A stretch of DNA of 50,654 nucleotides, from positions 1 to 50,654 of the IMG/VR virus record IMGVR_UViG_3300044655_000524; one strand, given 5' to 3'. This document shows, in pieces, positions 7,012 to 50,654 of this stretch (its first letter is position 1; the number at the start of each line of letters is the position of its first letter). This stretch comes from a virus. The position numbers and the translations under genes were made by a program. The notes beneath the pieces are model-generated. The model made no database searches. It worked only from the letters and a program-made list of their open reading frames with translations, and had not been told where the DNA came from.

Positions 7012-7885
7012 CAGCACCCCAACCACCGCCACCCCAATCACCCTGACGAGTGTATGACGGTGTGTAGTTGTTCATTTCTAAAATATCATCACGGATATTT
7101 TGATTACGCTTTTCAATGTTTAGGACACGTGTAAAGCTATTGGTAATTGCCGCTGTGTAATAGGCAAATGGATTTTGACTTTTAGCTTCGTCAAACTGTA
7201 GGCCAATTTGACTTAACTGTAACAATGCCTGACTGCGCATTTCATCATTGTAGGTATAGCCACGCCAGTTTGATCTAGTAGCATAGCGTTCACATAGTTT
7301 AACAAACATGTGTGCTAGCTTAGGAGTCATTTGTCCGTGATCTTTGCTGAACTCGCCCGGATTAAGTCCGTTAGTCCAATGACTTTTACCGACTACAACT
7401 GGTTCAAACTCCTCAGTGACTCGGTAGTGCAGGAATGGAGGGAAATTCACCTTAACATACTTAGCGGGTGCTTTGACTGCGACAGCCAGCTCGTCGTATT
7501 CGGTTTCGAACACGTCGTCATCTTCTAATTCTTCCGCTAGTTTAGCATCAGCTTTGCGTTGCTTTGCTTCGTCAATCGGAATATGCTCCCAGGTCATAAC
7601 ACGAAACACCACATCAGTAACAGGAATATTTTCTACAGGAATCGCAAACTCGTCTAGCTTGCGTTTGTTGCCTGCTAGCAACTCAGCTTCCTGAGCCTCT
7701 TTGGCTAGGCGCTCAGCACGCAATTTACGAGCTTCTGCGACATTTTTCTTAGTAATTGACGAAACATTAGTAACGATAGTGTCGTAACTGGTAACACTTG
7801 GATCTATAAAACTACAGTAATTTAATTTGCTTTTGTGTATTTCTTTTAGTATATCTTTATTGTTTAGATAATTGTGTTTTTTCAC
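7004..7885 (-). CDS. 55: Late-transcription sigma factor gp55, N-terminally extended
   Basis: A 293-residue protein from a GTG start at 7885, chosen because AAAAGGA lies 8 bases upstream; the frame is open further but would run into the divergent structural gene. The C-terminal part carries the phage sigma region 2 signature: SNWRGYTYNDEMRSQAL (205-221) and NPFAYYTAAITNSF (238-251). gp55 replaces host sigma70 on RNA polymerase and recognises a TATAAATA -10 element. The protein is much longer than T4 gp55 (185). About 180 residues precede the sigma motif, including a charged coiled-coil-like stretch (residues 47-80) and an acidic patch (EELEDDDVFETEYDE). The tail, GDWGGGGWGADE, is Trp- and acid-containing; in T4 the extreme C terminus contacts the sliding clamp, and a similar role here is inferred. 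Confidence 0.88.
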   Translation of the reverse strand: MKKHNYLNNKDILKEIHKSKLNYCSFIDPSVTSYDTIVTNVSSITKKNVAEARKLRAERLAKEAQEAELLAGNKRKLDEFAIPVENIPVTDVVFRVMTWEHIPIDEAKQRKADAKLAEELEDDDVFETEYDELAVAVKAPAKYVKVNFPPFLHYRVTEEFEPVVVGKSHWTNGLNPGEFSKDHGQMTPKLAHMFVKLCERYATRSNWRGYTYNDEMRSQALLQLSQIGLQFDEAKSQNPFAYYTAAITNSFTRVLNIEKRNQNIRDDILEMNNYTPSYTRQGDWGGGGWGADE

Positions 7886-7910: not shown

Positions 7911-7940
7911 ATTATATAGTCTATAAATATACTATAGCAA
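7911..7940 (-). promoter_or_regulatory. Sigma70-like promoter for the gp55 operon
   Basis: On the minus strand a TTGCTA (7940-7935) and a perfect TATAAT (7916-7911) are separated by 18 bases. The expected start falls near 7904, just before the AAGGA and GTG of gp55. The -35 matches consensus at four of six positions. The plus-strand late promoter lies inside this spacer. Confidence 0.5.
7922..7929 (+). promoter_or_regulatory. T4-type late promoter (TATAAATA)
   Basis: An exact copy of the T4 late -10 element recognised by gp55, 29 bases before the first ATG of the structural cassette, with an AAAAAGGA ribosome site between. It is flanked by inverted repeats TATAGT (7915-7920) and ACTATA (7931-7936). 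The divergent neighbour gene encodes gp55 itself. Confidence 0.8.
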
Positions 7941-36835: not shown

Positions 36836-37789
36836 ATGGCATACGCACAAGGCGACGTAATATTAAGAGACCACTATAATGTTTTTGCTACAGGCAATGC
36901 TGACGGCTCAGCTAATAATGCTGTGGCAAATATCAATACAGTATGGGGTGTTGGTAATGGTAACAAAGGATACGGCCAATCTACAGTGTTATCTGCGGTA
37001 ACAGCAGGTGGCACAGTAACAGCAACTCAATGGTCAACTATGATTGCTCGTTTAAACAGCATGTTAACACATCAAGCAGGTAGCGGTTCTGGTTTAACTA
37101 GTCCAGTTGCGGGCGATTTGATTGCTTACTTAAGTGCCCTGAGTGGTAAAGTTACAGATGCGTATAATAACCGTTTAAACTTTAACAGCACACGTGGAAC
37201 ACCGAGCACTACCAACTACGATGGTACATGGGCCCAAACAAGTCCAACGACATTCCAACAAGTACGTACAATTACTTTTGGTAGTGCAGACCAAGCACGT
37301 TATTTCTTTAATGCAGGTGGTCGTATCGGTATTAGTTTAAGTGTACCAGCAGGCGGCTCAGATAATAATAAAGAAACTGCTTGGACTAGTTTACTTGGTA
37401 CAAAATTTGGAACATTGCACTTTGATCAATCAACAAATACTCGCACCGGTGTTGGTGGTACACTAACTACTGACGGTAGTGGTATTGGTTTCTGGGATTT
37501 AACAACTTTAGATCAAACACTAATTAGATTAACAGATACTACTGCTGCATATACTAGCAATTATGTTGAGGTGTTGTGTAAAGTATCAGGAGCCGCAGGT
37601 GCAAACGGCGGATTAGGAACAACATTAACGTTTACAATTAACTACAATGATGGCGCTGCTGATTCAACAAACACAGCACAAGATCAAATTTCAATGACTG
37701 TGCGTGCGGCAGTAACCGTTACTCCACCAGAATCCACTAATATCTCAGCAACATGGGGCACAGTAACACCAGCGGCAACGGTTAACTAA
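36836..37789 (+). CDS. Virion structural protein at the end of the tail cassette
   Basis: A 317-residue protein. The N terminus is MAYAQGDVILRDHYNVFATG, then Gly/Asn-rich GVGNGNKGYGQS. Residues 60-110 are helical (TQWSTMIARLNSMLTHQ, then LIAYLSALSGKV), and residues 135-310 are beta-rich with FGSADQARYFFNAGGRI. The composition (Thr, Gly, Asn, Ser) is that of a surface-exposed tail protein. I recognise the type from other aquatic T4-like phages only as an unnamed structural protein. It is the last gene before an intrinsic terminator, and TAGGAAATAAACA supplies the ribosome site. Confidence 0.65.
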   Translation: MAYAQGDVILRDHYNVFATGNADGSANNAVANINTVWGVGNGNKGYGQSTVLSAVTAGGTVTATQWSTMIARLNSMLTHQAGSGSGLTSPVAGDLIAYLSALSGKVTDAYNNRLNFNSTRGTPSTTNYDGTWAQTSPTTFQQVRTITFGSADQARYFFNAGGRIGISLSVPAGGSDNNKETAWTSLLGTKFGTLHFDQSTNTRTGVGGTLTTDGSGIGFWDLTTLDQTLIRLTDTTAAYTSNYVEVLCKVSGAAGANGGLGTTLTFTINYNDGAADSTNTAQDQISMTVRAAVTVTPPESTNISATWGTVTPAATVN

Positions 37790-37792
37790 CAG

Positions 37793-37821
37793 TTGACACT
37801 TATCATATAATGTAATATAAT
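37793..37821 (+). promoter_or_regulatory. Consensus sigma70 promoter for the glycosyltransferase/radical SAM operon
   Basis: TTGACA (37793-37798) and TATAAT (37816-37821) are both perfect consensus hexamers with the optimal 17-base spacer. The expected transcription start is near 37828, 50 bases before the first gene. This is the type of host-polymerase promoter that T4-like phages use for early genes. Confidence 0.85.
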
Positions 37822-37822
37822 A

Positions 37823-37849
37823 AGAGCACTATCCAGTGCTTTTATTTTG
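37823..37849 (+). terminator. Intrinsic terminator after the structural cassette
   Basis: AGCACT (37825-37830), loop ATCC, AGTGCT (37835-37840), then TTTATTTT. The stem is a perfect 6 bp and extends with flanking A/T pairs. It would end transcripts from the late cassette. It begins right at the predicted start of the downstream promoter, so new transcripts probably lack the full 5' arm. Confidence 0.8.
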
Positions 37850-37877: not shown

Positions 37878-38195
37878 ATGACATCAACAGTTGAACAATT
37901 AGTGGAACAAATTCGTGTTGCTACCGACTATCAAAAAAATAAACATACCCTTAAAGAAAAGATTTTAACAGATCTACATTTAGTGCATGCCGGCGGACTA
38001 TTTTTAATAAGCCCAGCAATACTAGCATTTGTAACCACTTGGCCAGATAACACACTATTCTTAGAAGATGTCTATTCTAATCCTATTAAGATTAATCGTG
38101 ATGAATTTTTAACAGCGGCACGCGAGCATTATCAATCAATAATGAATTTGTGGCATATCGAGCATGACAAACTTAAACAAATCAGAAAAATCTAA
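37878..38195 (+). CDS. Small phage protein of unknown function, first gene of the early operon
   Basis: A 105-residue protein I do not recognise. Visible elements are a helical, charged N terminus (STVEQLVEQIRVATDYQKNK), a central HAGGLFLISPAILAFV hydrophobic stretch too short and too interrupted to call a membrane helix, and a C-terminal helical part (EHYQSIMNLWHIEHDKLKQI). It is first behind the consensus promoter and overlaps the next gene by 32 bases. No signal peptide is visible. Being first in an operon of glycosyltransferase-like and radical SAM genes, it could be a substrate, a scaffold or unrelated. Confidence 0.65.
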   Translation: MTSTVEQLVEQIRVATDYQKNKHTLKEKILTDLHLVHAGGLFLISPAILAFVTTWPDNTLFLEDVYSNPIKINRDEFLTAAREHYQSIMNLWHIEHDKLKQIRKI

Positions 38196-38943
38196 GGGTG
38201 TTGTCTTATTTGCAACAAACACGGATACAATAGATTATGAAGCTATTGCGCATCGTGCTAGTCGATTAATCTCGCATTATTTAAAGTTACCAGTTACTAT
38301 TATTACTAACAATATAAAAAGTAAAAATCAACGTTATTCGATTGATTCCGGTCAATTTGAACAATGGAATAATGCTGGTAGAGCGCAAGCATACGCACTC
38401 AGTCCGTATGATCAAACTATACTATTAGATAGTGATTATTTGATATTTGATGATAATTTATTAAAAATTGTAGACACAGTCAATGATTATACTATAGCCA
38501 GACACAATACATATATAGACGGAGCCGACGCTGGTGCCATGGGTACTTATAGTTTACCTACATTATGGGCTACAGTTGTTGTGTTTAATAAAACTCCGCG
38601 TACTAAATTATTGTTTGATTTAATTGGTAAAATTGAACGTAATTATAGTTATTATAAAAAACTGTATAATATACGCGAATCAAATTATCGCAATGATTAT
38701 GCGTTTACTATAGCAGATAATATTCTTAATGGGTATTGTCAAGACCCAATAAATTACTTGCCGTGGCCTATTGTTTCATTTTGCAATAAAGTGCAGTCAA
38801 TTAAATTAAAAGATGGAAAATTGCTAGTTAAATCAGATACACAGGCATGGGCAATGCCAAAGCAGTCATTGCATGTTATGAGTAAAGCGTACTTATTATC
38901 GGATGATTGTAACATATTGATTGAGGATGCAATCAATGCGTGA
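38164..38943 (+). CDS. Glycosyltransferase-like protein with DSD motif (GT8-like)
   Basis: A 259-residue protein with a Rossmann-like beginning (GVVLFATNTDTIDYEAIAH, then RLISHYLKLPVTIITNN) and ILLDSDYLIFDD at residues 86-97. The DxD (89-91) is the metal and nucleotide-sugar binding motif of GT-A glycosyltransferases. A catalytic-region-like stretch NYRNDYAFTIADNIL follows in the third quarter, resembling phage glycosyltransferase-like proteins that scan for N-D-x-x-F/A. The sugar and acceptor are unknown. It overlaps the previous gene by 32 bases; only a weak ribosome site is seen, so coupled translation is likely. Confidence 0.6.
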   Translation: MTNLNKSEKSKGVVLFATNTDTIDYEAIAHRASRLISHYLKLPVTIITNNIKSKNQRYSIDSGQFEQWNNAGRAQAYALSPYDQTILLDSDYLIFDDNLLKIVDTVNDYTIARHNTYIDGADAGAMGTYSLPTLWATVVVFNKTPRTKLLFDLIGKIERNYSYYKKLYNIRESNYRNDYAFTIADNILNGYCQDPINYLPWPIVSFCNKVQSIKLKDGKLLVKSDTQAWAMPKQSLHVMSKAYLLSDDCNILIEDAINA

Positions 38944-39754
38944 ATTTAAATCGCAAGTTGGGTTTTTAACCATTGCACAAAATAATCAGCAAACAGATTA
39001 TCTTAACCTTGCCTATATACAAGCGCAAAATATTAAAGCAACTCAACCCAATTCTCAATATGCAGTTATTGTCGATGCGCCTACACTAGCAGTAGTAACT
39101 GATGAGCATAAAGCAGTATTTGATTATATAATTGAATTACCAACAGATTATGCAACAGACGAACAGTGGAAAATGTCAAACGAATGGCAGGTATTTTACC
39201 TTACACCTTTTAAAGAAACAATTAAACTTGAAAGTGATTTATTGTTTACACGCGATATTAGTCATTGGCTATATGCACTAAGATTGCGCGATGTATGCTT
39301 TAGTTATAATTGCAAAAATTATCAACAACAAACAATAACTAACACACCATATAGAAAATTATTCGAACTTAATGACTTACCCAATGTCTATAGTGGCATG
39401 TATTATTTTAGATTTAGTCAGACTGCAGCAGAATTTTTTAAAATAGCTCGACTAATATATGCAAATTGGAGCACTGTAAAAGATCAACTAATACAATGCG
39501 ATGAATTGCCCTCGACCGATGTAGTATTTGCGTTAACTGCAAAATTAATAGGCATCGAACAATGTACTATACCTACGTTAGATTTCTTTAACTTTGTACA
39601 CATGAAACCACAGATACAAGGCTGGGCAGACACGCAACCGTGGACAGACCATGTTAATATCGAATACGACAAAGAAATTTTACGTATCAATAATGTGAAT
39701 CAATACAGCCCAGTGCATTATTATGAAAAGGAATTTAATGAATATAATAGGTGA
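38936..39754 (+). CDS. Glycosyltransferase-like protein with ESD motif, possible paralogue of the preceding gene
   Basis: A 272-residue protein from the ATG at 38936, supported by GAGG and by the 8-base start/stop overlap ATGCGTGA; upstream in-frame starts at 38921 and 38927 are less likely. Layout parallels the preceding gene: GFLTIAQNNQQTDYLNLAY at the N terminus, then KLESDLLFTRDI at 97-108 with ESD in place of DSD, and LPSTDVVFALTAKLI where the neighbour has NDYAF. Probably a GT-A-fold nucleotide-sugar enzyme or a degenerate partner of it. Loss of the first Asp of DxD may alter metal use. The substrate is unknown. Confidence 0.55.
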   Translation: MREFKSQVGFLTIAQNNQQTDYLNLAYIQAQNIKATQPNSQYAVIVDAPTLAVVTDEHKAVFDYIIELPTDYATDEQWKMSNEWQVFYLTPFKETIKLESDLLFTRDISHWLYALRLRDVCFSYNCKNYQQQTITNTPYRKLFELNDLPNVYSGMYYFRFSQTAAEFFKIARLIYANWSTVKDQLIQCDELPSTDVVFALTAKLIGIEQCTIPTLDFFNFVHMKPQIQGWADTQPWTDHVNIEYDKEILRINNVNQYSPVHYYEKEFNEYNR

Positions 39755-40100
39755 AGAAGAATTCCTTAGTGCAATGCAATCGTTTATACCATCGAATGTT
39801 AACGAGGAATATCGAGCATATTATGATGAGAACAACTGGATAACTGGGTTTGCCGGTAGTGGATTCCCTGATGGAGATAACTGGGTCGCTATAAGTAGAG
39901 AATTATATATTACACACAATTGGTCTAATTTAAGATTAGTAGATGGTAAAATAATTTATGTTGCTCCTGTATATATGCATTATTTTCAATTGACAAAAAG
40001 CACAAAAGGTATTAAAATAGTAAGAGGACATGCTGGAATTGTAGTCGAAGCAGACGAAGAATATACGGATATAGAATTTTATGACAATAGAAATAATTGA
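39738..40100 (+). CDS. Small protein of unknown function in the early operon
   Basis: A 120-residue protein from the ATG at 39738, chosen because AAAAGGA ends five bases upstream; an ATG at 39723 would add five residues without a good site. Features are GFAGSGFPDGDNWVAISRE, then KIIYVAPVYMHYFQL and an acidic C terminus (EADEEYTDIEF). It is Tyr-, Trp- and Asp-rich, without Cys, signal peptide or membrane segment. I do not recognise it. It is flanked by glycosyltransferase-like genes with overlaps of 17 and 20 bases, so it is part of the same unit. Confidence 0.6.
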   Translation: MNIIGEEEFLSAMQSFIPSNVNEEYRAYYDENNWITGFAGSGFPDGDNWVAISRELYITHNWSNLRLVDGKIIYVAPVYMHYFQLTKSTKGIKIVRGHAGIVVEADEEYTDIEFYDNRNN

Positions 40101-40977
40101 CGTAGCAGACTTGGATGTAATATACCTAACCTATGATGAACCTAATAAAGAAGCTAACTGGATCAAAATACAGAACATGGTGCCTTGGGCTGTTAGAGTA
40201 GATGGAGTCAAAGGTACTGATGCCGCACACAAAGCAGCCGCAGATGCTAGTAGTACTGATCGCTTTGTGCTTATTGATGGCGACAATCTTCCTGATCCTG
40301 CGTTCTTCAACCTTCAACTTAAACTTGATGACACTAATAGAGACTGTGTGTTCCGTTGGCGTGCCCGTAACTACATCAATGGTCTACAGTATGGTAATGG
40401 CGGGCTAAGTTGTTGGACAAAAGACTTTGTCTACGCAATGAAGACTCATGAAGCCAGTGATGGTAGTGCGGCCAATGACGTTGAGTTTTGTTTTTATCCA
40501 AACTATTGGGCTATGGCAGACTGCTACAGTACAACATATCCCAACCAAACTCCCTTTCAGGCCTGGCGTGCTGGATTCCGTGAGGGGGTTAAGATGTGTC
40601 TAGACCGCGGAGCAAAGCCTTCGCAACAAGAATTTAACAATCGTGTACATAGTCGCAACTATGATAATCTATGTATTTGGCAAAGTGTAGGTGCTGATGT
40701 AGAAAACGGCTTCTGGGCAATATACGGAGCCCGTGCTGGTACTATGTTGACTATGTGTACTGAATGGGATTATCGTCAAGTACAAGACTTTGACGTACTG
40801 GCCGAGTTGTGGGACAAGTATAAAGATCACGAACCTGATAATTGCCGCGAGATGGGTGAGGCCCTTAGGCGTGTTCTGGGCTTGCCTATCGTAGACATGG
40901 ATCCGGAAGAAAGTGCGTTCTTCAAACACCACTATAAGAGTAACTTTAAAAATCAAGGACTGATGATTCGTGAGTAG
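40081..40977 (+). CDS. Glycosyltransferase-like protein with DGD motif (GT2-like)
   Basis: A 298-residue protein. DVIYLTYDEPNKEANW at residues 12-27 and RFVLIDGDNLPDPAFF at 61-76 form the nucleotide-binding start and DxD (66-68) of a GT-A-type transferase. CVFRWRARNYINGLQYGNGG (about 89-108) follows as acceptor-side sequence, like other phage glycosyltransferases with an R-x-x-x-x-GL-YGNGG segment. The C-terminal half is helical and ends KNQGLMIRE. It precedes four consecutive radical SAM genes and overlaps the first by 8 bases. The donor sugar is not deducible. Confident of a glycosyltransferase-type fold, less so of activity. Confidence 0.65.
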   Translation: MTIEIIDVADLDVIYLTYDEPNKEANWIKIQNMVPWAVRVDGVKGTDAAHKAAADASSTDRFVLIDGDNLPDPAFFNLQLKLDDTNRDCVFRWRARNYINGLQYGNGGLSCWTKDFVYAMKTHEASDGSAANDVEFCFYPNYWAMADCYSTTYPNQTPFQAWRAGFREGVKMCLDRGAKPSQQEFNNRVHSRNYDNLCIWQSVGADVENGFWAIYGARAGTMLTMCTEWDYRQVQDFDVLAELWDKYKDHEPDNCREMGEALRRVLGLPIVDMDPEESAFFKHHYKSNFKNQGLMIRE

Positions 40978-42361
40978 TGATTTTATGTCAAGCGCAGAAC
41001 TAATGAAGGATCAATTAGGTCCTGCCCTCTGCTTGGCTAAATGGCAACAGGTAAGTCTACATCTAACAACTGGTATGACTAATAGTTGTTACCATCCACC
41101 CCTACACGAAATAGATCCTGCCCCATTAGCAACGAATCCTAGTGCCCTACATAACACAGCGTATAAGAAACAACAACGTGTTATCATGCTTAAACAAGAA
41201 CGTCCTGGCGAATGTAGTTACTGTTGGAGTGCTGAAGACAACGGACAATTAAGTGATCGCCACTATCGTAGTGGCGAACCTTGGGCCGCAGAACATTTTG
41301 ATGCAATAGTAAACAGCACAGGCCTAGAAGATGCTACTCCTAGTTATGTAGAAGTAAACTTCAGTCATGGTTGTAACCTAGCCTGTAGCTATTGTAGCCC
41401 ACAATATTCAACTGAATGGGGCAAAGATATAGCTAAATTTGGCGCATATCCTACCAATAATAAGCATAATGACCCTAGTTATTTTGAGGGTAGACGTAAG
41501 CCTATTCCTGTACGTGAAGCTAATCCTTATGTAGAAGCGTTCTGGCGTTGGTGGCCTGAACTATACGGTAGCTTAAAACACTTTCGTATGACTGGTGGCG
41601 AGCCACTTATGGATAAGAATACCTATCGCGTGTTTGATTATATCTTAGCCTTGCCTAAGAGTGATTTACATGTAGACGTAACTAGTAACTTTAGTGTTGA
41701 GCCTGAACTATTTGACAAATACCTAGACAAAGTTAAACAACTATGCGAGGGTGAACGTATAGAACACTTTATGCAATATGTTAGCATAGACAGCGGAGAT
41801 CCTGCGCAGGCCGCGTATATCCGTAGGGGCATGAGCTACCATCGTGTAAGTTCGTATGTACATCGTTACCTAACACATATACCTTATCGCAATAGTCTAA
41901 CCTACATCATTACAATGAGTAATTTAAACATCTTAGGATTAAAACAGTTATTGCAGACTATATTAGATCAACGTGAATTGTATAGTGAAACTTACCAACG
42001 TGTTTGGTTTGATACACCTTTACTACGCAGTCCATCTTGGCAAAGTCTACAGATACTTCCGGCAAGTTATCACACAGTATTAGAAGATGTTATAGCATTT
42101 ATGCGAGCTAATCAAATGCCCAACGATAGCTTTGTTGGCTTTAAGGACTACGAAATACAGCGCATGGAACGCAACTTGCTTTGGATGAAAGAGCCCAAAG
42201 AATCTAAGTATATTCAAGAACAGCGTGCTGACTTTTATCGTTTTTTTAATGAGTACGATAAACGTGATGAATATATGCAGACTGGGAATCTCGGCTTTTT
42301 AAATGTATTCCCTCAAATGCGAGAATTCTGGCAGGAGTGTAAATATCATGCTGAACAATAA
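40970..42361 (+). CDS. Radical SAM protein with N-terminal twitch/SPASM-like region (1 of 4 in tandem)
   Basis: A 463-residue protein from a GTG at 40970 (8-base overlap GTGAGTAG with the preceding stop); an ATG at 40985 is an alternative. The N-terminal Cys-rich region has C40 and CSYCWSAEDNG at 82-92. The radical SAM core has CNLACSYC at 135-142 and MTGGEPLMD at 207-215. The stretch between core Cys and GGE is long (about 65 residues). Four tandem genes of this architecture follow one another here; related twitch-domain proteins occur in aquatic phages and bacterial surface-polysaccharide clusters. They are expected to use an auxiliary Fe-S cluster. Substrate unknown. Confidence 0.87.
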   Translation: MSSDFMSSAELMKDQLGPALCLAKWQQVSLHLTTGMTNSCYHPPLHEIDPAPLATNPSALHNTAYKKQQRVIMLKQERPGECSYCWSAEDNGQLSDRHYRSGEPWAAEHFDAIVNSTGLEDATPSYVEVNFSHGCNLACSYCSPQYSTEWGKDIAKFGAYPTNNKHNDPSYFEGRRKPIPVREANPYVEAFWRWWPELYGSLKHFRMTGGEPLMDKNTYRVFDYILALPKSDLHVDVTSNFSVEPELFDKYLDKVKQLCEGERIEHFMQYVSIDSGDPAQAAYIRRGMSYHRVSSYVHRYLTHIPYRNSLTYIITMSNLNILGLKQLLQTILDQRELYSETYQRVWFDTPLLRSPSWQSLQILPASYHTVLEDVIAFMRANQMPNDSFVGFKDYEIQRMERNLLWMKEPKESKYIQEQRADFYRFFNEYDKRDEYMQTGNLGFLNVFPQMREFWQECKYHAEQ

Positions 42362-43511
42362 ATCTTTCTGTGCGGCTCCATTCTTTAGACTTACTATGAG
42401 AACGTCGGGTGCTTTGTTGCCTTGCTGTAATTACTCCTCGGATCAGAATTCAATTAATATTAGAGATGTTCGTTTAGAGGATTATTTTGACGGCGCCGTT
42501 ATGCAACAGGTTAAGGCTGATATGCTTGCTGGCGTACCTGTAAAACAGTGTGCTACATGTTATACTGCTGAAGCCACATGGAATTACAGTATGCGCACAG
42601 ACTTTAACCGTAAACATGAAAAAGAATTAGCGGATATAGTTAATACAAATCAACTTCGAACCATAGAACTTCATTTGGGGAACTATTGTAATTTAAAATG
42701 TTTAATGTGCTTCTCACAAGATAGTTCAGCTATGTTAACTGAAAATATAGAATTAAAGTTAGACACAACTCCCCAACAGTACTTTACATTTGATAACAAT
42801 ACATTTGATGCTATGTTTGAAAGTATTGAAAAACATATAGATCAAATTGAAGTATTAGACCTGCGTGGCGGCGAAACTATGATTATCCCACAGGTTAAAC
42901 AATGGCTAACAGCTATTGACCCTGAAGTGGCCAAAAGGTTAACTATTAAAATACAATCCAATGGTACAGTGTTTAACGAATCGTGGCGCAATATATTCTT
43001 AAAATTTAAAACAGTTGAACTTGCTCTAAGTGTTGATGCTTTTGGCGCACTCAACGAATATATAAGATTCCCTGGTAATTGGCAACAATTTAATGATAAT
43101 TTACAAAAGTTTAAATCAATCGACACAGTGCAGTTAGCAATTAATTCTACTATTAGTAATTTAAATTGGTTAAGAGTTGAGCAACTATTAGATTGGTATG
43201 CTAAAGATGATAATACGTTTCATCTTGCTGTATTACATAGTCCCAATTATCATTTATTCACAAATCTACCTAAGCCACTATTAGCTAGACACCTGCCAAT
43301 AATTAAACAGTACTCTCATAGGTTTAACAATGAAATTACTACTAATCAAATACACGAGTTAATTGCTACCGTAGAGAATTATTTAGATAATGCTGTAGAA
43401 GATACAGCTCTTTGGTTAGAATTCTGTCGTGTTATTACGTTACGTGATGCTTATAGAGGCAATAGTATATTTGATCAATTACCTGAGTTAAAGGATTACT
43501 GGGTTGAATAA
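42348..43511 (+). CDS. Radical SAM protein with N-terminal twitch/SPASM-like region (2 of 4)
   Basis: A 387-residue protein from the ATG at 42348, chosen for AGGAG ten bases upstream; upstream in-frame starts lie inside the previous gene without a ribosome site. The Cys-rich N terminus has C8, LLPCCNYS (26-27) and CATCYTAEATW (68-78). The core has CNLKCLMC at 114-121 and LRGGETMII at 172-180. The Trp of the usual C-x-x-C-W is Tyr here. AdoMet-binding elements such as KIQSNGT and ELALSVDAFG follow. It overlaps the previous gene by 14 bases. The protein resembles its three neighbours in layout but is clearly diverged, so the set is not a recent duplication. Confidence 0.87.
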   Translation: MLNNKSFCAAPFFRLTMRTSGALLPCCNYSSDQNSINIRDVRLEDYFDGAVMQQVKADMLAGVPVKQCATCYTAEATWNYSMRTDFNRKHEKELADIVNTNQLRTIELHLGNYCNLKCLMCFSQDSSAMLTENIELKLDTTPQQYFTFDNNTFDAMFESIEKHIDQIEVLDLRGGETMIIPQVKQWLTAIDPEVAKRLTIKIQSNGTVFNESWRNIFLKFKTVELALSVDAFGALNEYIRFPGNWQQFNDNLQKFKSIDTVQLAINSTISNLNWLRVEQLLDWYAKDDNTFHLAVLHSPNYHLFTNLPKPLLARHLPIIKQYSHRFNNEITTNQIHELIATVENYLDNAVEDTALWLEFCRVITLRDAYRGNSIFDQLPELKDYWVE

Positions 43512-44691
43512 GTATTGTGCTCTAGTAGACTTGGGTTTAGCCACACAAACTGACGGAACGGTTACGGTATGTAATCAGAGTCGCACATTGTTTACAGACC
43601 CCTTGGGAAAAACTATTCGATTAGATTCTCACTCGATTGAAGATGGGTGGAATAGTCCTACCCGCCAAGAAATAAAACAAGCATTGTTAAATGGTCAACA
43701 GCATGCTAATTGTCGCGATTGTTGGGACGAAGAAGCCGCTGGCCGCTCTAGCATTAGAACTAGGGCAAACCAGGACTATGCTGAAGTTCGGCCAATGGAT
43801 CAACCTAGGGTGTTTATGTTAAAGCCTGGCAACGCATGTAATCTAACTTGCCGCCACTGTAACCCGTATGTAAGTAGTAAGTGGTATAAAGATCATTACA
43901 CTGCTACTCAGCATACTAGTAACATAACTTTTAAAGAATATGCTAGCCGTTATGATTCTATTAGAGATAGTTTTGACGATGAAAATCATTTGTGGGACAC
44001 TCTTAAAAAGTGGAACGACGGTATAGTATTTTATGATTTATATGGCGCTGAACCATTATTAATTAATCCGCTATTGGAAGTATTAAGGCATAGTGTCAGC
44101 ACAGGATCTTCTAAGCATCAAGATATACATATTAATACCAATGGAACCATATGGCACGATGACTTCAATACCTTGTTTGCTAATTTTAATCATGTAGAAT
44201 TAGCTGTAAGTATAGATGGGATAGCTGATCAATTTGAATATATGCGTTATCCTGCTAATTGGTCTAAGGTATTAGAAAATTTAAAGCGTTATCAACAATT
44301 AGCACAATTTAATACTAGCATTAAATTTAGTGTATGTATTACTGTAAGTCTATTAAATGTTTACTACCTAATAGATTATCTAAACTTTTTTCATTCGATG
44401 GGTATTGAAACTACAGTAAATATTGTACATAGGCCAAATTATTTAAATGTAAGAATTGCCCCACAAGCAGTTAAACAGGCGATTATAGATAATTTAAATA
44501 TTAAAAGATTAACTGAATCATCGTGGGATTTTAAAGTAAAAGAAATTATAGATTATATCCGATTAGACTATGAAGATCCACAAGAACTATTAAAAGAGTT
44601 TTGGAGACATACAAATTTATACGATAAACTACGTGAGCAATCCTATGCTGAAATCTTTTCAGAATTTTATAAGGTGTTAACTAATGAGTAA
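43504..44691 (+). CDS. Radical SAM protein with N-terminal twitch-like region and GAE in place of GGE (3 of 4)
   Basis: A 395-residue protein from a TTG start at 43504, supported by AAGGA eight bases upstream and by the 8-base overlap TTGAATAA. The N-terminal Cys are C5, C23 and CRDCWDEEAAG at 70-80; the usual second Cys of the CC pair is missing (VCNQ). The core CNLTCRHC (112-119) is intact. The conserved Gly-Gly-Glu reads YGAEPLLI (180-187), a conservative change that keeps the Glu. A later AVSIDGIADQFEY is equivalent to the AdoMet/substrate-side strand in its neighbours. A C-terminal helical tail ends the protein. Confidence 0.86.
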   Translation: MNKYCALVDLGLATQTDGTVTVCNQSRTLFTDPLGKTIRLDSHSIEDGWNSPTRQEIKQALLNGQQHANCRDCWDEEAAGRSSIRTRANQDYAEVRPMDQPRVFMLKPGNACNLTCRHCNPYVSSKWYKDHYTATQHTSNITFKEYASRYDSIRDSFDDENHLWDTLKKWNDGIVFYDLYGAEPLLINPLLEVLRHSVSTGSSKHQDIHINTNGTIWHDDFNTLFANFNHVELAVSIDGIADQFEYMRYPANWSKVLENLKRYQQLAQFNTSIKFSVCITVSLLNVYYLIDYLNFFHSMGIETTVNIVHRPNYLNVRIAPQAVKQAIIDNLNIKRLTESSWDFKVKEIIDYIRLDYEDPQELLKEFWRHTNLYDKLREQSYAEIFSEFYKVLTNE

Positions 44692-45982
44692 TACTCTTTG
44701 CGCATTTGCATTTGTCCATACTGATATAGAACCTAACGGAGATATTAAGTTCTGTTGCGCCGCCGCAAATGGACAGCACTGTGACAGTCAGGGCAAGGTA
44801 TACAATGTACAAACCCATACGTTGACTGAAGCATGGAACAGCGAACAAATTAAAGAAACTAGATTAGCCATGATTCGTGGAGAGAAGCCTGAGTTATGTA
44901 GATATTGTTGGGACATGGAGAATGAAGATAATACACAAGGTAACAGTATACGCTTAGAAGCCGCTAACGAAAGAAATAAATTAGAAAATATAACAGATCG
45001 AATAGAGTATGCCCGCACCCATGGGGGTGAACTATCTGACGATTATCTAGCATACGATTTTCAATTGAGTATCGGTAATCTATGTAATCTAGCCTGTAAA
45101 ATGTGTAATCCTGGTTTTAGCACACAATTTCAAAAATTCTATGCCAGATATCACGACTCGCCAAAAGAGATTAGTTTCGTGTTGGGTCGCCCCGAAGATC
45201 ATAGTGTTGAAGCACAGTTACCATTCAATACAACATTTGACTGGCCAATAAAACAAGACCTTAAGGATATTTTTAAGGACCATATATCAAAAATACAGTT
45301 GATGTTCTTTACAGGCGGTGAACCTACATTGATTCCTCAAGTAGTTGATTTTATTGATCATCTGGCAGAAGTAGATCATCACCCGAATCTTAAGGTTTGG
45401 CCTAGTACTAATTGTACAAACATTAATAAACGTCTATTGGATAGTTTGAGCAAACACAATCATCTATGGATAAATCTAAGTTTAGATGGCAAAGATGAAA
45501 TTGCTGCGATACAGCGTACACCGAGCCATTGGCCTAGTATAGAAAAGAATGTCGATATGTTAATGGACTGGGTTAATATTCAACGCGACAGTAAACTAAA
45601 ACATATTAAAATAAACATGCTTAGTACTATAACAGCGTTAAATTTCCATCATATATTAGATTTTTGGAAGTATTTCGATGATAGGTACAGTTCTAAAACA
45701 CAAGATTACGGATCAGCTGTTAATCTGGTACTAAATCGGCAAACTAATTTTGGTATTGAGATTATACCTAAAGCAGTAATACCAGAACTTAAAGAAAAGT
45801 TAGAACAGTATCGTAAATTGGGATCAAAGCACATACAAAGAGCATATGATCGATATGATCAACTATTAGAATCAACAACGTTTGCTGACAACCACGATGA
45901 AATACATTTCTGTTTAGACCGAGTACAAACATATCATTTGGATTTAAATATTAAAGAAATCTATAGCATTTATTACAAATAG
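44684..45982 (+). CDS. Radical SAM protein with N-terminal twitch/SPASM-like region (4 of 4)
   Basis: A 432-residue protein; AAGGTG precedes the ATG, which overlaps the previous stop by 8 bases (ATGAGTAA). It is the most canonical of the set: C6, IKFCCAAANG (24-25), ELCRYCWDMEN (72-75), core CNLACKMC at 134-141, FFTGGEPTLIP at 208-218 and INLSLDGKDE in the later AdoMet-side strand. The core-to-GGE region is longer than in the two preceding genes. It is last in the operon, followed by a short leader and gp43. Expected to bind two Fe-S clusters. Substrate unknown. Confidence 0.88.
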   Translation: MSNTLCAFAFVHTDIEPNGDIKFCCAAANGQHCDSQGKVYNVQTHTLTEAWNSEQIKETRLAMIRGEKPELCRYCWDMENEDNTQGNSIRLEAANERNKLENITDRIEYARTHGGELSDDYLAYDFQLSIGNLCNLACKMCNPGFSTQFQKFYARYHDSPKEISFVLGRPEDHSVEAQLPFNTTFDWPIKQDLKDIFKDHISKIQLMFFTGGEPTLIPQVVDFIDHLAEVDHHPNLKVWPSTNCTNINKRLLDSLSKHNHLWINLSLDGKDEIAAIQRTPSHWPSIEKNVDMLMDWVNIQRDSKLKHIKINMLSTITALNFHHILDFWKYFDDRYSSKTQDYGSAVNLVLNRQTNFGIEIIPKAVIPELKEKLEQYRKLGSKHIQRAYDRYDQLLESTTFADNHDEIHFCLDRVQTYHLDLNIKEIYSIYYK

Positions 45983-46002
45983 AATATATACTATAAAGAG
46001 TC

Positions 46003-46017
46003 GCACACTTAATGTGC
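46003..46017 (+). other. Small stem-loop in the gp43 leader
   Basis: GCACA, loop CTTAA, TGTGC form a 5-bp stem. No U-run follows, so it is not a standard terminator. It may be an mRNA processing or stability element between the radical SAM operon and gp43. Confidence 0.35.
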
Positions 46018-46032
46018 ATGTAGAAAAGTATT

Positions 46033-46050
46033 TGCCAGCTATAAGTGGCA
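46033..46050 (+). promoter_or_regulatory. Candidate gp43 translational operator hairpin
   Basis: TGCCA (46033-46037), 8-base loop GCTATAAG and TGGCA (46046-46050) form a 5-bp hairpin ending three bases before the GGAG (46054-46057) of gene 43. T4 gp43 represses its own translation by binding an 18-base hairpin with a 5-bp stem and 8-base loop at the same place. The loop sequence here differs from that of T4. Confidence 0.55.
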
Positions 46051-46062
46051 TATGGAGAGTAA

Positions 46063-48726
46063 ATGAGTTATGTAGACGCACTCTACGATCGTGCTAAAGA
46101 TCGTATCCATATCGTTGAACGCAACAACGGTCTTCGCGAATATCGAGAATTTCCAGCAACTTATGTGTTTTATTATGATGATCCTAAGGGCAAACATCGT
46201 ACTATCTATGACACACCTGTAAGCCGCTTTAGTACACGTATCGGTAAAGAGTTCCATAAAGAACTACGTATACAGAATGGTAAAAAGATATGGGAAAGTG
46301 ATATCAATCCTGTATTCCGTTGTTTAGAAGAAAACTATCTTGGTATTACTAGTCCTAAACTACAAACTGCCTTTTTCGATATTGAGGTCGACTTTGACCC
46401 AAAACGCGGCTATGCTCCAACAAACGATCCATTCAATCCTATTACAGCCATATCAGTTTACTTAGATTGGCTAGACAAGTTAGTTACCTTAGTAATTCCG
46501 CCTAAGAGCTATAGTTGGGAAACTGCTGAAGAAATATGTAAGCAATACGACAACTGCTTCTTGTTTGATCGTGAAGAGGATATGTTAGATACATTCCTTA
46601 ACCTAATTGATGATGCGGACATATTGAGTGGGTGGAACAGTGAGGGTTATGATATACCCTATACCATTGGGCGTATTACCCGTGTTCTAAGCAAAGACGA
46701 CACACGCCGTATGTGCCTGTGGGGGCAGTATCCCAAACAACGTGACTTTGAACGCTTTGGTGCTACTAACTTAACCTTTGACCTAATTGGTCGTGTACAT
46801 CTAGACTATATGCAGTTATATCGCAAGTACACCTATGAAGAGCGTCATAGTTATAGTTTGGATGCCATTGGTGAATATGAACTAGATGAACGTAAAACAC
46901 AATACGAAGGTACGTTAGATCAGCTGTATAATAAAGATTTTCCTAAGTTTATCGAATACAACCGTCAAGATACTATGTTGTTAGGTAAACTAGATAAGAA
47001 ACTACGCTTCTTAGACCTTGCTAACGAACTAGCACATGATAACACAGTGTTACTACAGACTACAATGGGCGCGGTAGCAGTAACAGAGCAGGCCATCATT
47101 AACCAAGCACACCAGCAGGGTATGGTAGTAATGAACCGCAAAGGTCGTGATGATCAAGGTGATACGCAAGCGGCTGGTGCTTATGTAGCACATCCTAAAA
47201 AAGGCATGCATGATTACATTGGCGCCATTGACATTAACTCACTGTATCCTAGTGCGATTCGTGCGCTGAACATGGGTCCTGAAACCATTGTGGGACAACT
47301 TCGTCCTATAATGACCGATCATTACATCAAAGAAAAGATTGATGCTAATAGTAGTTTTGCCGACGCATGGGAAAATATGTTTGGTACCTTAGAGTATGAA
47401 GCTGTTATGGAAAATAAACCGGGTGTTGAAATTACTATTGACTGGGAAGCATCTGGCGAAAGTACAGTACACAGCGCCACAGAAGTTTGGAAATTAATAT
47501 TTGACAGCAACCAACCGTGGATTCTTAGTGCTAACGGTACTATCTTTAGCTTTGCTACAGAAGCCATTGTACCTAGCTTGTTAAAGCGTTGGTATGCTGA
47601 ACGTAAAGAACTACAGGCTAAGAAGAAAGAGTGTACAGACCCAGAAGAGATTGCGTTCTGGGATAAACGACAGTTGGTTAAGAAGATTAACTTGAACAGT
47701 TTGTACGGTGCCTTATTGAATCCGGGCTGTCGTTTCTTTGATAAACGTATTGGACAAAGTACTACGCTAACGGGCAGAACTATTGCTAAACACATGGATG
47801 CGTTTGTTAATGAATGTATTACGGGAGTATATGATCATACCGGTGAAGCTATTATCTACGGTGATACTGACTCATGTTATTTTAGTGCGTGGCCTGCAGT
47901 TAAAGATGAAGTAGCCGCAGGTAAGATGGAATGGTCAAAAGACATTGCTATTCAACTATACGATAATATTGCTGATCAAGTTAATGATAGTTTCCCGGCC
48001 ATGATGGAACGTAGCTTCCACGTACCGCGTGATATGGGCGAAGTTATTAAAGGTGGGCGTGAACTAGTAGCCGAAAAAGGTTTGTTTATTAAAAAGAAAC
48101 GCTATGCTGTATTGATTGTTGACCTTGAAGGTAAACGGTTGGATCAACACGGTAAACCGGGCAAAGTAAAAGCCATGGGCTTAGACTTAAAACGTTCAGA
48201 TACTCCTAAGGTTGTACAGGACTTCTTAAGTGATATCTTGTTAGATGTCTTAACAGGTAGTAAAAAAGAACACATCTATGATAAGGTTAGAGAGTTTAAA
48301 TTGCTATTCCAAGAACGTCCAGCTTGGGAAAAAGGCACACCTAAACGTGTAAACAACTTGACCAAGTATGGCAAGGAAGAAGAACGATTAGGCCGAGCCA
48401 ACATGCCCGGACATGTGCGTGCCGCGCTTAATTGGAATAACCTAAAACGTATGCATGGTGATAACTATTCAACTAGCATTGTTGATGGTATGAAAACTAT
48501 TGTGTGTAAACTCAAAGACAACCCGCTGGGTTATACTAGTGTTGGCTATCCAACGGATGAAGCACACATTCCACAGTGGTTTAAAGACCTACCGTTTGAT
48601 GATGGGCTGATGGAAACTACTATTGTAGATCAGAAGGTAGAAAATCTATTAGGGGTGTTGGATTGGGATATTCCTAACAATACTGATATTAAGACAACCT
48701 TTGATAATTTGTTTAGTTTTGAATAA
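46063..48726 (+). CDS. 43: DNA polymerase gp43 (family B)
   Basis: An 887-residue replicative polymerase with 3'-5' proofreading; T4 gp43 is 898. The exonuclease motif I is FFDIEVDFD (D106, E108), followed by LSGWNSEGYDIPY and the Exo III YNRQDTMLL. Polymerase motif A is DINSLYPS (D390), motif B is KINLNSLYGALLNPGC and motif C is YGDTDSCYF (D601, D603). The C terminus ends LDWDIPNNTDIKTTFDNLFSFE, resembling the clamp-binding tail of T4 polymerase, with DNLFSF as likely hydrophobic contact. No intein or intron interrupts it. A GGAG ribosome site is five bases upstream, behind a hairpin that may be an autoregulatory operator. Confidence 0.98.
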   Translation: MSYVDALYDRAKDRIHIVERNNGLREYREFPATYVFYYDDPKGKHRTIYDTPVSRFSTRIGKEFHKELRIQNGKKIWESDINPVFRCLEENYLGITSPKLQTAFFDIEVDFDPKRGYAPTNDPFNPITAISVYLDWLDKLVTLVIPPKSYSWETAEEICKQYDNCFLFDREEDMLDTFLNLIDDADILSGWNSEGYDIPYTIGRITRVLSKDDTRRMCLWGQYPKQRDFERFGATNLTFDLIGRVHLDYMQLYRKYTYEERHSYSLDAIGEYELDERKTQYEGTLDQLYNKDFPKFIEYNRQDTMLLGKLDKKLRFLDLANELAHDNTVLLQTTMGAVAVTEQAIINQAHQQGMVVMNRKGRDDQGDTQAAGAYVAHPKKGMHDYIGAIDINSLYPSAIRALNMGPETIVGQLRPIMTDHYIKEKIDANSSFADAWENMFGTLEYEAVMENKPGVEITIDWEASGESTVHSATEVWKLIFDSNQPWILSANGTIFSFATEAIVPSLLKRWYAERKELQAKKKECTDPEEIAFWDKRQLVKKINLNSLYGALLNPGCRFFDKRIGQSTTLTGRTIAKHMDAFVNECITGVYDHTGEAIIYGDTDSCYFSAWPAVKDEVAAGKMEWSKDIAIQLYDNIADQVNDSFPAMMERSFHVPRDMGEVIKGGRELVAEKGLFIKKKRYAVLIVDLEGKRLDQHGKPGKVKAMGLDLKRSDTPKVVQDFLSDILLDVLTGSKKEHIYDKVREFKLLFQERPAWEKGTPKRVNNLTKYGKEEERLGRANMPGHVRAALNWNNLKRMHGDNYSTSIVDGMKTIVCKLKDNPLGYTSVGYPTDEAHIPQWFKDLPFDDGLMETTIVDQKVENLLGVLDWDIPNNTDIKTTFDNLFSFE

Positions 48727-48727
48727 T

Positions 48728-50654
48728 ATGGCAGAAATTAAATTAGTAAACATAGAAGCATTGCGTCAGCTACCTAGAACTCAACTCACAGTAGCTGACG
48801 TGGACACCAAGAGTCAAGATTCTTATCATCGTTACGGTATGGATTTTACTAAAAATCTACAACTAACTGGCAAGTATTGTTACCACCCGTTCAATAGCGT
48901 AACTATTGATAGTAACGGTGAATGCTTTGTATGTGTATGTCAAGCATGGTTGCCTATTAGTGTAGGTAATATCTTAGATTTTAACAGCTTAACTGAAATT
49001 GTACAGAGTCCTAAGGCTCGCGAAATACAAGCCAGTATCATTGATGGTACTTATAAGTATTGTGATCAAAATACCTGTCATGTAATCAAATCTGATCGTT
49101 TAGAGAATAGAATCGAGCACCGCCCCGATACAGTTAATTGGATTGTATTTGCTATAGATGATAGCTGTAACTTAAGCTGTCCTAGTTGTCGTAATGAAAT
49201 GATATTCGTTAATAAAGGTGAAGAATTTGAGAAGCGTATGACTATTAGTCGTCATATTACTAAATTAATTCAAAATCATCACCATTTCTTAAAATTTACC
49301 TTAAGTGGTGACGGTGATCCGTTTGCTAGTCATGTATATCGTAACATCTTAGAAAATCTACAGCTTACTGATGATGATCCAATTGAGATTGAGATTGTTA
49401 CTAACGGTATCTTAGTGGCTAGCCATTGGGATCGTATGAAGGGAATCCATAAACACGTAAAACGTTTTAAGATTAGTTTTGATGCCGGAACTCCTGAGAC
49501 CTATGCTATTACCAGACGCCAAGGTGATTGGGATAAATTAATCGAAAGTAGTGAATATATAGTTAAATGGAAACAAAAATACTACAGCGATATGGAAATT
49601 GTAGCCAATTTTGTAGTACAAAATACCAATTATCAGGATATTCACGAGTATGTTCGGTTAACAAAGCGTATAGGATTTGATGAGATAGCATTTCAAAAAG
49701 TAACTGATTGGGGCAAGTGGTGGGATGGCAATAAGAATCGCTTTGTTGAACACGCCGTGTGGATGGAAGATCATCCTAACTATGGCGATTTAGTTGGCAT
49801 TTTAAGTGATCCGATTATGGGAGATAAACAAATCCAATTAACTAACCTAGCACCTTTACAACAAAAGGAAAAGTTATCTCTTGAAGAATTAACTCGATTA
49901 AAAGTTAATCTACAGAGTGTTGACCGTATTGACGGAATGTTTCAGTCTTTGACAAAATTAAAAGAATATTACTGGCATCTGACTTCTCCGTTTACGTATG
50001 CAAGTGATTTGTCAGATTTAATAAATCAATGTCTTCAAATTGAAGATCAGATAACCAAGTTAACTGCGGTTAATGTTTCAATCTTAGAAAAAATTAGTGA
50101 TAATATATCGGATATCACTAAAGATTATTATAACCGAGGTTATTCTGTTTACGGTAACTATAAGGCCATAGATCGCTGTAATCCACAAGACGAGAGAACT
50201 AGGGTAATGCCAATTACTGATGATACAACTACCGAGGCAATCTTAGCACAAATTGGGAAATATGTCAATTGGCAATATCCTGGTTTAGAAATAGGGCCCG
50301 GTGCTGGTGTATGGACTGAACACTTAGTAGCCAGTGAACCCCTCTATTTGGTTGATATACATGATGAATTTTTAATAGAAACAAAGACCAAATTCAATGA
50401 TGTTTATCAAAATAAATTAAGAAGCTATATTACCAGTGAAACAGATCTAAGTATGTTACCACAAAATCAATTTGGTTTTGTGTTTGCTTGGAATGTGTTT
50501 AATTATCTACCATTTGATCTATTAGAACAATATTTAGAATCTATATATAAAGTTCTGCGTCCGGGTGGAGTAGCTATGTTTAGTTATAATAACGCAGAGC
50601 GTCCTGGGTGTGCTCGTTATGTGGACATGGGATACATGAGTTACATGCCCAAAC
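48728..50654 (+). CDS. Radical SAM-methyltransferase fusion protein, partial (3' end outside window)
   Basis: The frame opens with an ATG one base after the gp43 stop and stays open for 642 codons to the window edge. The N-terminal Cys-rich region has C51, C66, C69, C71, C112 and C117. The radical SAM core CNLSCPSC is at 147-154, followed by SGDGDPFAS (193-201) where relatives have GGE. A helical linker (about 395-490) leads to a class I S-adenosylmethionine methyltransferase: LEIGPGAGVWTEHL at 520-533 (motif I), LYLVDIHD (motif II), FVFAWNVFNYLP (motif IV) and VLRPGGVAMFSY (motif VI-like). Such a pairing would let one chain do radical and ordinary methyl-transfer chemistry on one substrate (inference). 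No Shine-Dalgarno; expression probably depends on gp43 translation. Confidence 0.85.
   Translation, partial: MAEIKLVNIEALRQLPRTQLTVADVDTKSQDSYHRYGMDFTKNLQLTGKYCYHPFNSVTIDSNGECFVCVCQAWLPISVGNILDFNSLTEIVQSPKAREIQASIIDGTYKYCDQNTCHVIKSDRLENRIEHRPDTVNWIVFAIDDSCNLSCPSCRNEMIFVNKGEEFEKRMTISRHITKLIQNHHHFLKFTLSGDGDPFASHVYRNILENLQLTDDDPIEIEIVTNGILVASHWDRMKGIHKHVKRFKISFDAGTPETYAITRRQGDWDKLIESSEYIVKWKQKYYSDMEIVANFVVQNTNYQDIHEYVRLTKRIGFDEIAFQKVTDWGKWWDGNKNRFVEHAVWMEDHPNYGDLVGILSDPIMGDKQIQLTNLAPLQQKEKLSLEELTRLKVNLQSVDRIDGMFQSLTKLKEYYWHLTSPFTYASDLSDLINQCLQIEDQITKLTAVNVSILEKISDNISDITKDYYNRGYSVYGNYKAIDRCNPQDERTRVMPITDDTTTEAILAQIGKYVNWQYPGLEIGPGAGVWTEHLVASEPLYLVDIHDEFLIETKTKFNDVYQNKLRSYITSETDLSMLPQNQFGFVFAWNVFNYLPFDLLEQYLESIYKVLRPGGVAMFSYNNAERPGCARYVDMGYMSYMPK

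Follow-up and report, generated by a model that had tools for sequence, protein, structure and literature searches.

The closest described relative of the gene system treated here is the host recognition cluster of pelagimyophages, a variable region with tail fibres, glycosyltransferases (GTs) and radical S-adenosylmethionine (rSAM) cassettes for which modification of the host O-chain has been proposed (PMC7029224). We describe a cluster of GT-like and rSAM genes in the IMG/VR virus record IMGVR_UViG_3300044655_000524, which was analyzed over all of its 50,654 nucleotides (50.7 kb, probably a fragment; hereafter the window). Both systems occur in T4-like aquatic phages, lie behind tail fibres and contain GTs and rSAMs. 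However, the pelagimyophage region was called non-syntenic and freshwater genomes were said to lack radical SAM (PMC7029224), whereas the present cluster has a fixed gene order. It adds five ortholog positions for enzymes of the NCBIfam family NF033640 (N_Twi_rSAM), a carbamoyltransferase, a dedicated promoter and its occurrence in jumbo phages.

Other accounts are less similar. The marine T4-like virus TARA_ERS488813_N000010 also has many rSAM genes in one genome, with 12 of them treated under Fe–S metabolism, but unlike for the present set, the passage on this virus describes no gene cluster or glycan link (PMC5332604). In another freshwater virus with rSAM genes, VP_139 from Lake Baikal, the proteins were linked to PQQ synthesis (PMC7678222), whereas those of the window reach at most 24.6 bits with the PqqE model TIGR02109 (cut-off 381). 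Polysaccharide modification clusters of jumbo phages and cyanophages share with the present set paralogous GTs, which are presumed to change an outer polysaccharide; the word 'radical' occurs nowhere in that paper (PMC7824862). The same is true of the account of the Moraphages, an aquatic jumbo lineage with core GTs that was considered as a precedent and rejected (PMC12619734). A first-pass annotation of the window had spoken of a candidate new modification pathway. This is fair, but rSAM/GT cassettes in phage host-recognition regions had been noted earlier (PMC7029224). Of the ordered array and the promoter-in-terminator element we found no description in the open-licence papers searched.

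Conserved gene order behind the tail fibres

Relatives of the cluster were collected by scanning IMG/VR with GT_3, which gave 297 stretches. The best 80 of the 297, with 66–87% identity in GT_3 and forming 55 groups at 90% identity, were kept for examination. Genes were counted in loci with sufficient flank, 75 upstream and 57 downstream; the downstream reach of 8 kb sometimes fell short of P4 and P5, so that the counts for these two are partly low. In adequately flanked loci the order behind the tail fibres is u317-u105-GT_1-GT_2-u125-GT_3, followed by inserts and then by five N_Twi_rSAM positions, P1 to P5. GT_1 and GT_2 are present in all 75 upstream loci and u317, u105 and u125 in 74 each, while downstream P1 and P3 are found in 57/57, P2 in 56/57, P4 in 50/57 and P5 in 45/57. 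The number of N_Twi_rSAMs after GT_3 is 5.1 on average (range 3–8). A tree made by a quick method places each of P1 to P5 in a supported group of its own, with one member per position and a few duplicates. Of the aligned members, GT_3 and P1 vary least, with mean column identities of 81% and 76% (GT_2 66%, GT_1 57%). Seven large contigs with N_Twi_rSAM arrays show, within the fetched stretches, the same order from u317 to rSAM_C as the window, and metagenomic contigs of 329–374 kb have 7–16 N_Twi_rSAM matches each, a few of them weak. Two large fragment contigs with the polymerase (G005, G007) contain no N_Twi_rSAM, from which nothing is concluded since they are fragments.

The surroundings of the array are variable in part. 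The genes past P5 code for a protein of unknown type (about 361 aa), for SGNH-type proteins and for an O-carbamoyltransferase (PF16861, 3e-48). The inserts differ between phages and include extra SGNH genes, GT-like genes with a common C-terminal motif (33/57) and an rSAM_A-like gene (10/57); in contig G002 inserts stand at the GT end of the cluster. A DegT-type aminotransferase is present in G001 (6e-84), and neighbors in marine relatives include NAD-dependent sugar epimerase/dehydratase and UDP-glucose dehydrogenase-type proteins. With the host recognition clusters of T4-like phages it has in common that it adjoins tail fibres and carries GT-type genes.

The window contains a rearranged copy of this conserved cluster of aquatic T4-like jumbo phages, with a displaced P4 on the other strand (Table 1). 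The order is kept up to P1 (rSAM_C, 64–82% identical), after which follow rSAM_D, rSAM_E, rSAM_F, the DNA polymerase and rSAM_G, and the nine genes from u105 to rSAM_F show successive head-to-tail overlaps. P2, P3, P5 and the carbamoyltransferase are absent from the 50.7-kb fragment and may be encoded in another part of this phage's genome. rSAM_E, rSAM_F and rSAM_G have counterparts in a second locus, which surrounds the polymerase and is common to L008–L010 (about 60%, 58–66% and about 60%, respectively). The seven rSAMs were at first regarded as one set. They instead comprise two members of the conserved cluster (rSAM_C and rSAM_B), three of the polymerase locus, a side gene (rSAM_A) and the unplaced rSAM_D. 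The dedicated pathway that had been proposed nevertheless holds more strongly than originally stated, in view of the fixed-order set in relatives. Neither of the outcomes that would count against it was found: the cores are of the rSAM type, and P1 and P3 accompany GT_3 in every adequately flanked relative.

Table 1. Position of cluster genes, regulatory elements and context features in the window
Feature	Coordinates	Strand	Evidence
SGNH-like protein	2301..3011	-	weak match to SGNHb profile of related clusters, E 3e-8
rSAM_A, extra Cys after core	2959..3813	-	PF04055 2.6e-7; matches rSAM_A-like gene of 10/57 clusters
Sulfotransferase-like protein	3764..4450	-	no profile support
rSAM_B (displaced P4), N_Twi_rSAM	5500..7041	-	NF033640 286 bits; P4 profile 358 bits; P4 group in tree
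T4 late-promoter motif TATAAATA (context)	7922..7929	+	sole copy in window, upstream of virion operon
u317, first cluster member, behind fibre genes	36836..37789	+	directly upstream of u105 in 74/75 relatives
Sigma-70-type promoter TTGACA-N17-TATAAT	37793..37821	+	only 12/12 match in window; about 0.1 expected
Terminator-like hairpin AGCACT-ATCC-AGTGCT, then TTTATTTT	37825..37840	+	read directly; 5′ arm at predicted transcription start
u105, first operon gene	37878..38195	+	74/75 relatives
GT_1, GT-A-like	38164..38943	+	75/75 relatives; invariant DxD (D89, D91; DSD in window)
GT_2, GT-A-like	38921..39754	+	75/75 relatives; invariant ESD (E104 S105 D106); PF03407 E 0.016, under cut-off
u125	39723..40100	+	74/75 relatives
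GT_3, most conserved GT-like protein	40081..40977	+	66–87% identity in best 80; invariant DGDN
rSAM_C (P1), N_Twi_rSAM	40970..42361	+	NF033640 289 bits; P1 in 57/57 relatives
rSAM_D, N_Twi_rSAM	42303..43511	+	NF033640 277 bits; long unplaced tree branch
rSAM_E, N_Twi_rSAM, polymerase-side locus	43504..44691	+	NF033640 286 bits; orthologs about 60% in L008–L010 beside DNA polymerase
rSAM_F, N_Twi_rSAM, polymerase-side locus	44684..45982	+	NF033640 231 bits; orthologs 58–66% in L008–L010
Family B DNA polymerase (context)	46063..48726	+	PF00136 E 1.8e-35
rSAM_G, twitch-rSAM + class I methyltransferase, off contig end	48701..50654	+	PF04055 1e-10, SPASM 1e-7, PF08242 4e-10

Promoter and terminator-like hairpin

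The intergenic region between u317 and u105 contains a sigma-70-type promoter that is conserved among the relatives. A match of at least 10/12 is found upstream of u105 in 40 of 60 non-redundant stretches, the window included, compared to 3.9 in shuffles, and the spacing is mostly 17 bases. In half of the 40 stretches with a good promoter (20, against 0.7 in controls) a hairpin with T-run overlaps the promoter, with its 5′ arm before the predicted start. The window is outside this strict set of 20 because the pairing of its hairpin extends into the T-run. Two forms of overlap are found repeatedly: either the hairpin loop contains the –10 box, or the arm starts directly after this box. Relatives with promoter and hairpin interleaved upstream of u105 include L166, L179, L180 and L204, and the arrangement is absent from all 99 intergenic promoter-like sites in the polymerase loci. 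A second u317 copy in G001 is preceded by a like promoter and hairpin.

Judging from the sequence, the terminator would fold in transcripts that run in from the fibre genes, whereas those initiated at the promoter would not include its 5′ arm. The late-promoter motif TATAAATA is found once in the window where 10.5 copies are expected, and in 140 kb of clusters it does not occur at all (9.5–14.9 expected). The u105-led operon is probably not a late operon, because it has a sigma-70-type promoter with an interleaved hairpin and because TATAAATA is missing from the clusters.

Radical SAM proteins

A PF04055 search of the window returns exactly seven rSAM proteins (A to G), which is the number given by the first-pass annotation, and the cores it had read (CNLACRGC, CNLRCRIC, CNLACSYC, CNLKCLMC, CNLTCRHC, CNLACKMC, CNLSCPSC) occur in the genes to which it had assigned them. 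The CX3CX2C motif is present in all seven. Six reach the Pfam cut-off; rSAM_D does not (27.4 vs 29.5) and is placed in the superfamily by NF033640 (276.8 bits). The NF033640 cut-off of 170 bits is passed by rSAM_B to rSAM_F, with 286, 289, 277, 286 and 231 bits. rSAM_G, at 49.4 bits under this cut-off, has the domain order of the N_Twi_rSAMs and is related to the family, but is not a member. rSAM_A is not among the results of the NF033640 genome search and gives 18 bits with our own profile. To our knowledge, no function is known for the NF033640 enzymes.

The Cys-rich part before the core that had been ascribed to six of the proteins is the N-terminal twitch (auxiliary Fe–S) part of rSAM_B to rSAM_G. 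In an alignment of 67 sequences the twitch cysteines C21, C82 and C85 are invariant and C40 nearly so; these four precede the core and end in CxxC, and the core cysteines C135, C139 and C142 are conserved. rSAM_A lacks a twitch-type Cys part N-terminal to the core and has extra cysteines (200, 216, 256, 259) C-terminal to it. The AlphaFold model of rSAM_C (mean pLDDT 93.9) has the rSAM fold, with Z 13.9 to SkfB, and the nearest structures include BlsE, DesII, SkfB, SuiB and anSME. The twitch part of the N_Twi_rSAMs matches by profile the twitch of BtrN (PDB 4m7s/4m7t), which follows the rSAM core in BtrN but precedes it here.

The fused methyltransferase that had been noted is confirmed in rSAM_G by PF08242. 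A relative of its rSAM part only (54%) lies inside the array of G014, which ties rSAM_G to the theme of the array. In polymerase loci L035–L111 the post-polymerase gene in most cases matches rSAM_G without an rSAM score and is apparently a methyltransferase alone. Scanning IMG/VR directly with the proteins rSAM_G and rSAM_F gave no matches, whereas alignment-based scans did. No close ortholog of rSAM_D was found, and rSAM_B has an N-terminal extension of about 120 residues.

Transferase-like and other genes of the window

GT_1 and GT_2 are homologous to each other. All three GT-like proteins have invariant acidic motifs, as expected for the DxD-type site of GT-A enzymes. Profiles of GT_1, GT_2 and GT_3 gave no convincing solved relatives, and a fold search with GT_3 returned nothing at E 0.001. 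For u317 no PHROG match was found, and u105 has no match in 50,697 phage records. The SGNHb family of the related clusters matches DUF6071/GDSL, and the SGNH-like protein proposed earlier for the window has a weak match to it. The sulfotransferase-like assignment of the gene at 3764–4450 could not be substantiated, since it has no Pfam, PADLOC or significant PHROG match.

Baseplate genes, a late sigma factor, SbcCD and a family B DNA polymerase give the window a T4-like phage content. Among the best-ranked isolates its polymerase is nearest to those of the jumbo phages Phosso (a Sinorhizobium phage, 52.5%) and Atu_ph07 (47%). In the structural region, positions 17090–31312 are one open frame of 4740 residues, followed at 31315–33252 by a fibre-like protein made up mostly of repeats of an 'LTSNAAVQAG' type unit. 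A frame at 2–253, truncated at the contig edge, has homing-endonuclease-like PHROG matches.

Cellular relatives and isolated phages

GT_3, u105 and GT_2 have no match in isolated phages, and P1 finds there only 22% identity, in Vibrio K566/K567. Phosso and Atu_ph07 have rSAM genes but no N_Twi_rSAM above the cut-off; QueE-like and FolE-like genes lie close to the polymerase gene of Phosso.

In cellular genomes, N_Twi_rSAMs above the cut-off occur in 94 of 291 genomes of the Bdellovibrionota, the phylum of G017, compared to 3 of 398 of the Pseudomonadota, that of G015 (Fisher p about 1e-35). The cluster phages might infect predatory bacteria or have obtained genes from them. In G017, relatives of GT_3 and P1 are less than 8 kb apart; of the four proteins there that Pfam assigns to GT2, two separate the pair and two are close by. 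In G045, of the same family, a 2.04-Mb contig has relatives of P1 (416 bits), GT_3 (208 bits) and P3 (an N_Twi_rSAM), and its neighbors, read by eye, are GT2-like proteins and an FAD protein, with grpE- and dnaK-like genes nearby. The GT_3/P1 pair thus stands in glycan-type neighborhoods in cells. On a contig of another genome of the G017 family (L237, G069:C21:124001-139884), a pheT-like gene is followed after a few kb by u317-u105-GT_1-GT_2-(163 aa)-GT_3-N_Twi_rSAMs, a phage-like module in a bacterial contig that was either integrated or exchanged.

That all genome-collection matches are cellular was ruled out by a 335-kb contig in a Neomarinimicrobiota bin (PBPT01000016.1; L135, L226–L230), which has a phage DNA polymerase, fibre-like genes and the cluster. 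With L133 and L124 it belongs to phage-looking pieces binned as Neomarinimicrobiota, Pelagibacter and Pacearchaeota genomes.

Proposed role of the cluster

An explanation of the cluster should account for the fixed gene order, the rSAM identity of its enzymes, the orthologous array positions and the conserved promoter. We propose, with moderate confidence, that it modifies a glycan and that its enzymes act on a glycan of the host envelope, changing the receptor and blocking competing phages. In this mechanism GT_1 to GT_3, as GT-A-like proteins, would build or extend the glycan. Each N_Twi_rSAM would carry out a single radical reaction on a sugar or an intermediate of the glycan, for example an epimerisation, dehydrogenation or deoxygenation, and the SGNH-type enzymes and the carbamoyltransferase would add or remove O-substituents. 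Transcription would start at the operon's host-type sigma-70 promoter and be shielded from that of the late fibre operon, and the enzymes would therefore probably act during infection on the host envelope. Glycan-type neighbors support this proposal, namely the carbamoyltransferase, the GDSL/DUF6071 proteins, the DegT-type aminotransferase, the sugar epimerase/dehydratase and the UDP-glucose dehydrogenase-type proteins. It is also supported by the synteny of the loci, by the separate clades of P1 to P5, by the GT2-rich surroundings of the cellular relatives and by the position behind tail fibres, which agrees with that of the pelagimyophage cluster (PMC7029224). Among the structural relatives, we take BtrN to be an aminocyclitol dehydrogenase and BlsE and DesII to be sugar-acting enzymes. 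A host surface glycan was among the targets suspected in the first-pass annotation, and the evidence leans to a glycan, short of proof.

Several observations weigh against this proposal. No substrate or activity was found for any N_Twi_rSAM, and the peptide maturases SkfB and SuiB are as close in fold as the sugar enzymes. GT_1, GT_2 and GT_3, described earlier as three DxD-type GT-like proteins, have the invariant DxD, ESD and DGDN motifs but reach no Pfam GT family above cut-off. The N-terminal half of the GT_3 AlphaFold model aligns with both GT-A and nucleotidyltransferase folds at Z 6–7, and the model is of low confidence (pLDDT 61). Promoter type is no proof of timing, and u317 travels with the cluster, which favors a target on the virion.

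The last point leads to the strongest alternative, in which the glycan made by the cluster ends up on the virion, where u317 or the tail fibres accept it, and alters receptor binding or shields the particle. It stays in consideration because the cluster lies directly behind the fibre genes and u317 is constant: besides its near-universal presence in the loci, u317 accompanies u105, GT_1, GT_2 and GT_3 on a Bdellovibrionota contig, with the pheT-like gene alongside, and its second copy in G001 has a like promoter and hairpin. However, the operon has its own sigma-70-type promoter, the late motif is missing, a terminator-like hairpin separates it from the fibres, and the P1 and GT_3 relatives of G017 and G045 are surrounded by GT2-type genes, and no virion gene is seen near them. 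We regard a virion target as possible but rather improbable; the host envelope is to us about twice as plausible, because of the sigma-70-type promoter and the cellular GT neighborhoods.

It is unlikely that the rSAMs instead modify peptides or proteins by SPASM-type maturation and the GTs glycosylate the same protein, with no surface glycan involved. The SPASM-type Cys parts and the presence of SkfB, SuiB and anSME among the nearest folds would fit such chemistry, but no maturase model reaches its cut-off with the window rSAMs, no small conserved precursor gene was seen in the cluster at a floor of 85 aa, and the array is accompanied by sugar-type and carbamoyl enzymes.

Nucleotide or DNA chemistry, such as viperin-like chain terminators, 7-deazaguanine or another DNA hypermodification, is very improbable. 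It could be suspected from the weak viperin and QueE similarity, from the DNA polymerase adjoining the rSAM genes of the window, and from the QueE-like and FolE-like genes in Phosso. Yet the scores are 16–40 bits with the viperin model NF038283 (best 39.7, cut-off 180) and at most 31 with QueE (cut-off 260), with up to 46 bits for PADLOC pVip, and the array of the relatives lies by the tail fibres rather than by replication genes. As far as we know, the twitch part is a feature of neither the viperin nor the QueE family.

That these are unrelated auxiliary genes, neighbors by chance without a common function, is the least credible explanation: several rSAM lineages are indeed mixed in the window, and rSAM_A and rSAM_D may be such genes, but for u105 to P1 this is refuted by the complete presence of P1 and P3 in fixed order at 66–87% GT_3 identity.

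Within the preferred proposal of a modified host envelope glycan, a further and more tentative idea is that P1 to P5 act in sequence to give a sugar or glycan structure that cells are not known to make, with the promoter in the loop or arm of the preceding operon's terminator serving as early switch. If this holds, the glycan chemistry would be specific to phages and governed by an insulated switch of its own. The five-position fixed array beside GT-like genes, examined here in dozens of jumbo-phage loci, gives the NF033640 family a testable setting, and it suggests that oxygen-sensitive radical chemistry on glycans is used by phages of lakes and seas. The cluster also provides a concrete example of the ways in which the host surface, or the fibres of the phage itself, may be remodeled by large phages, and it offers a compact promoter-in-terminator element for study.

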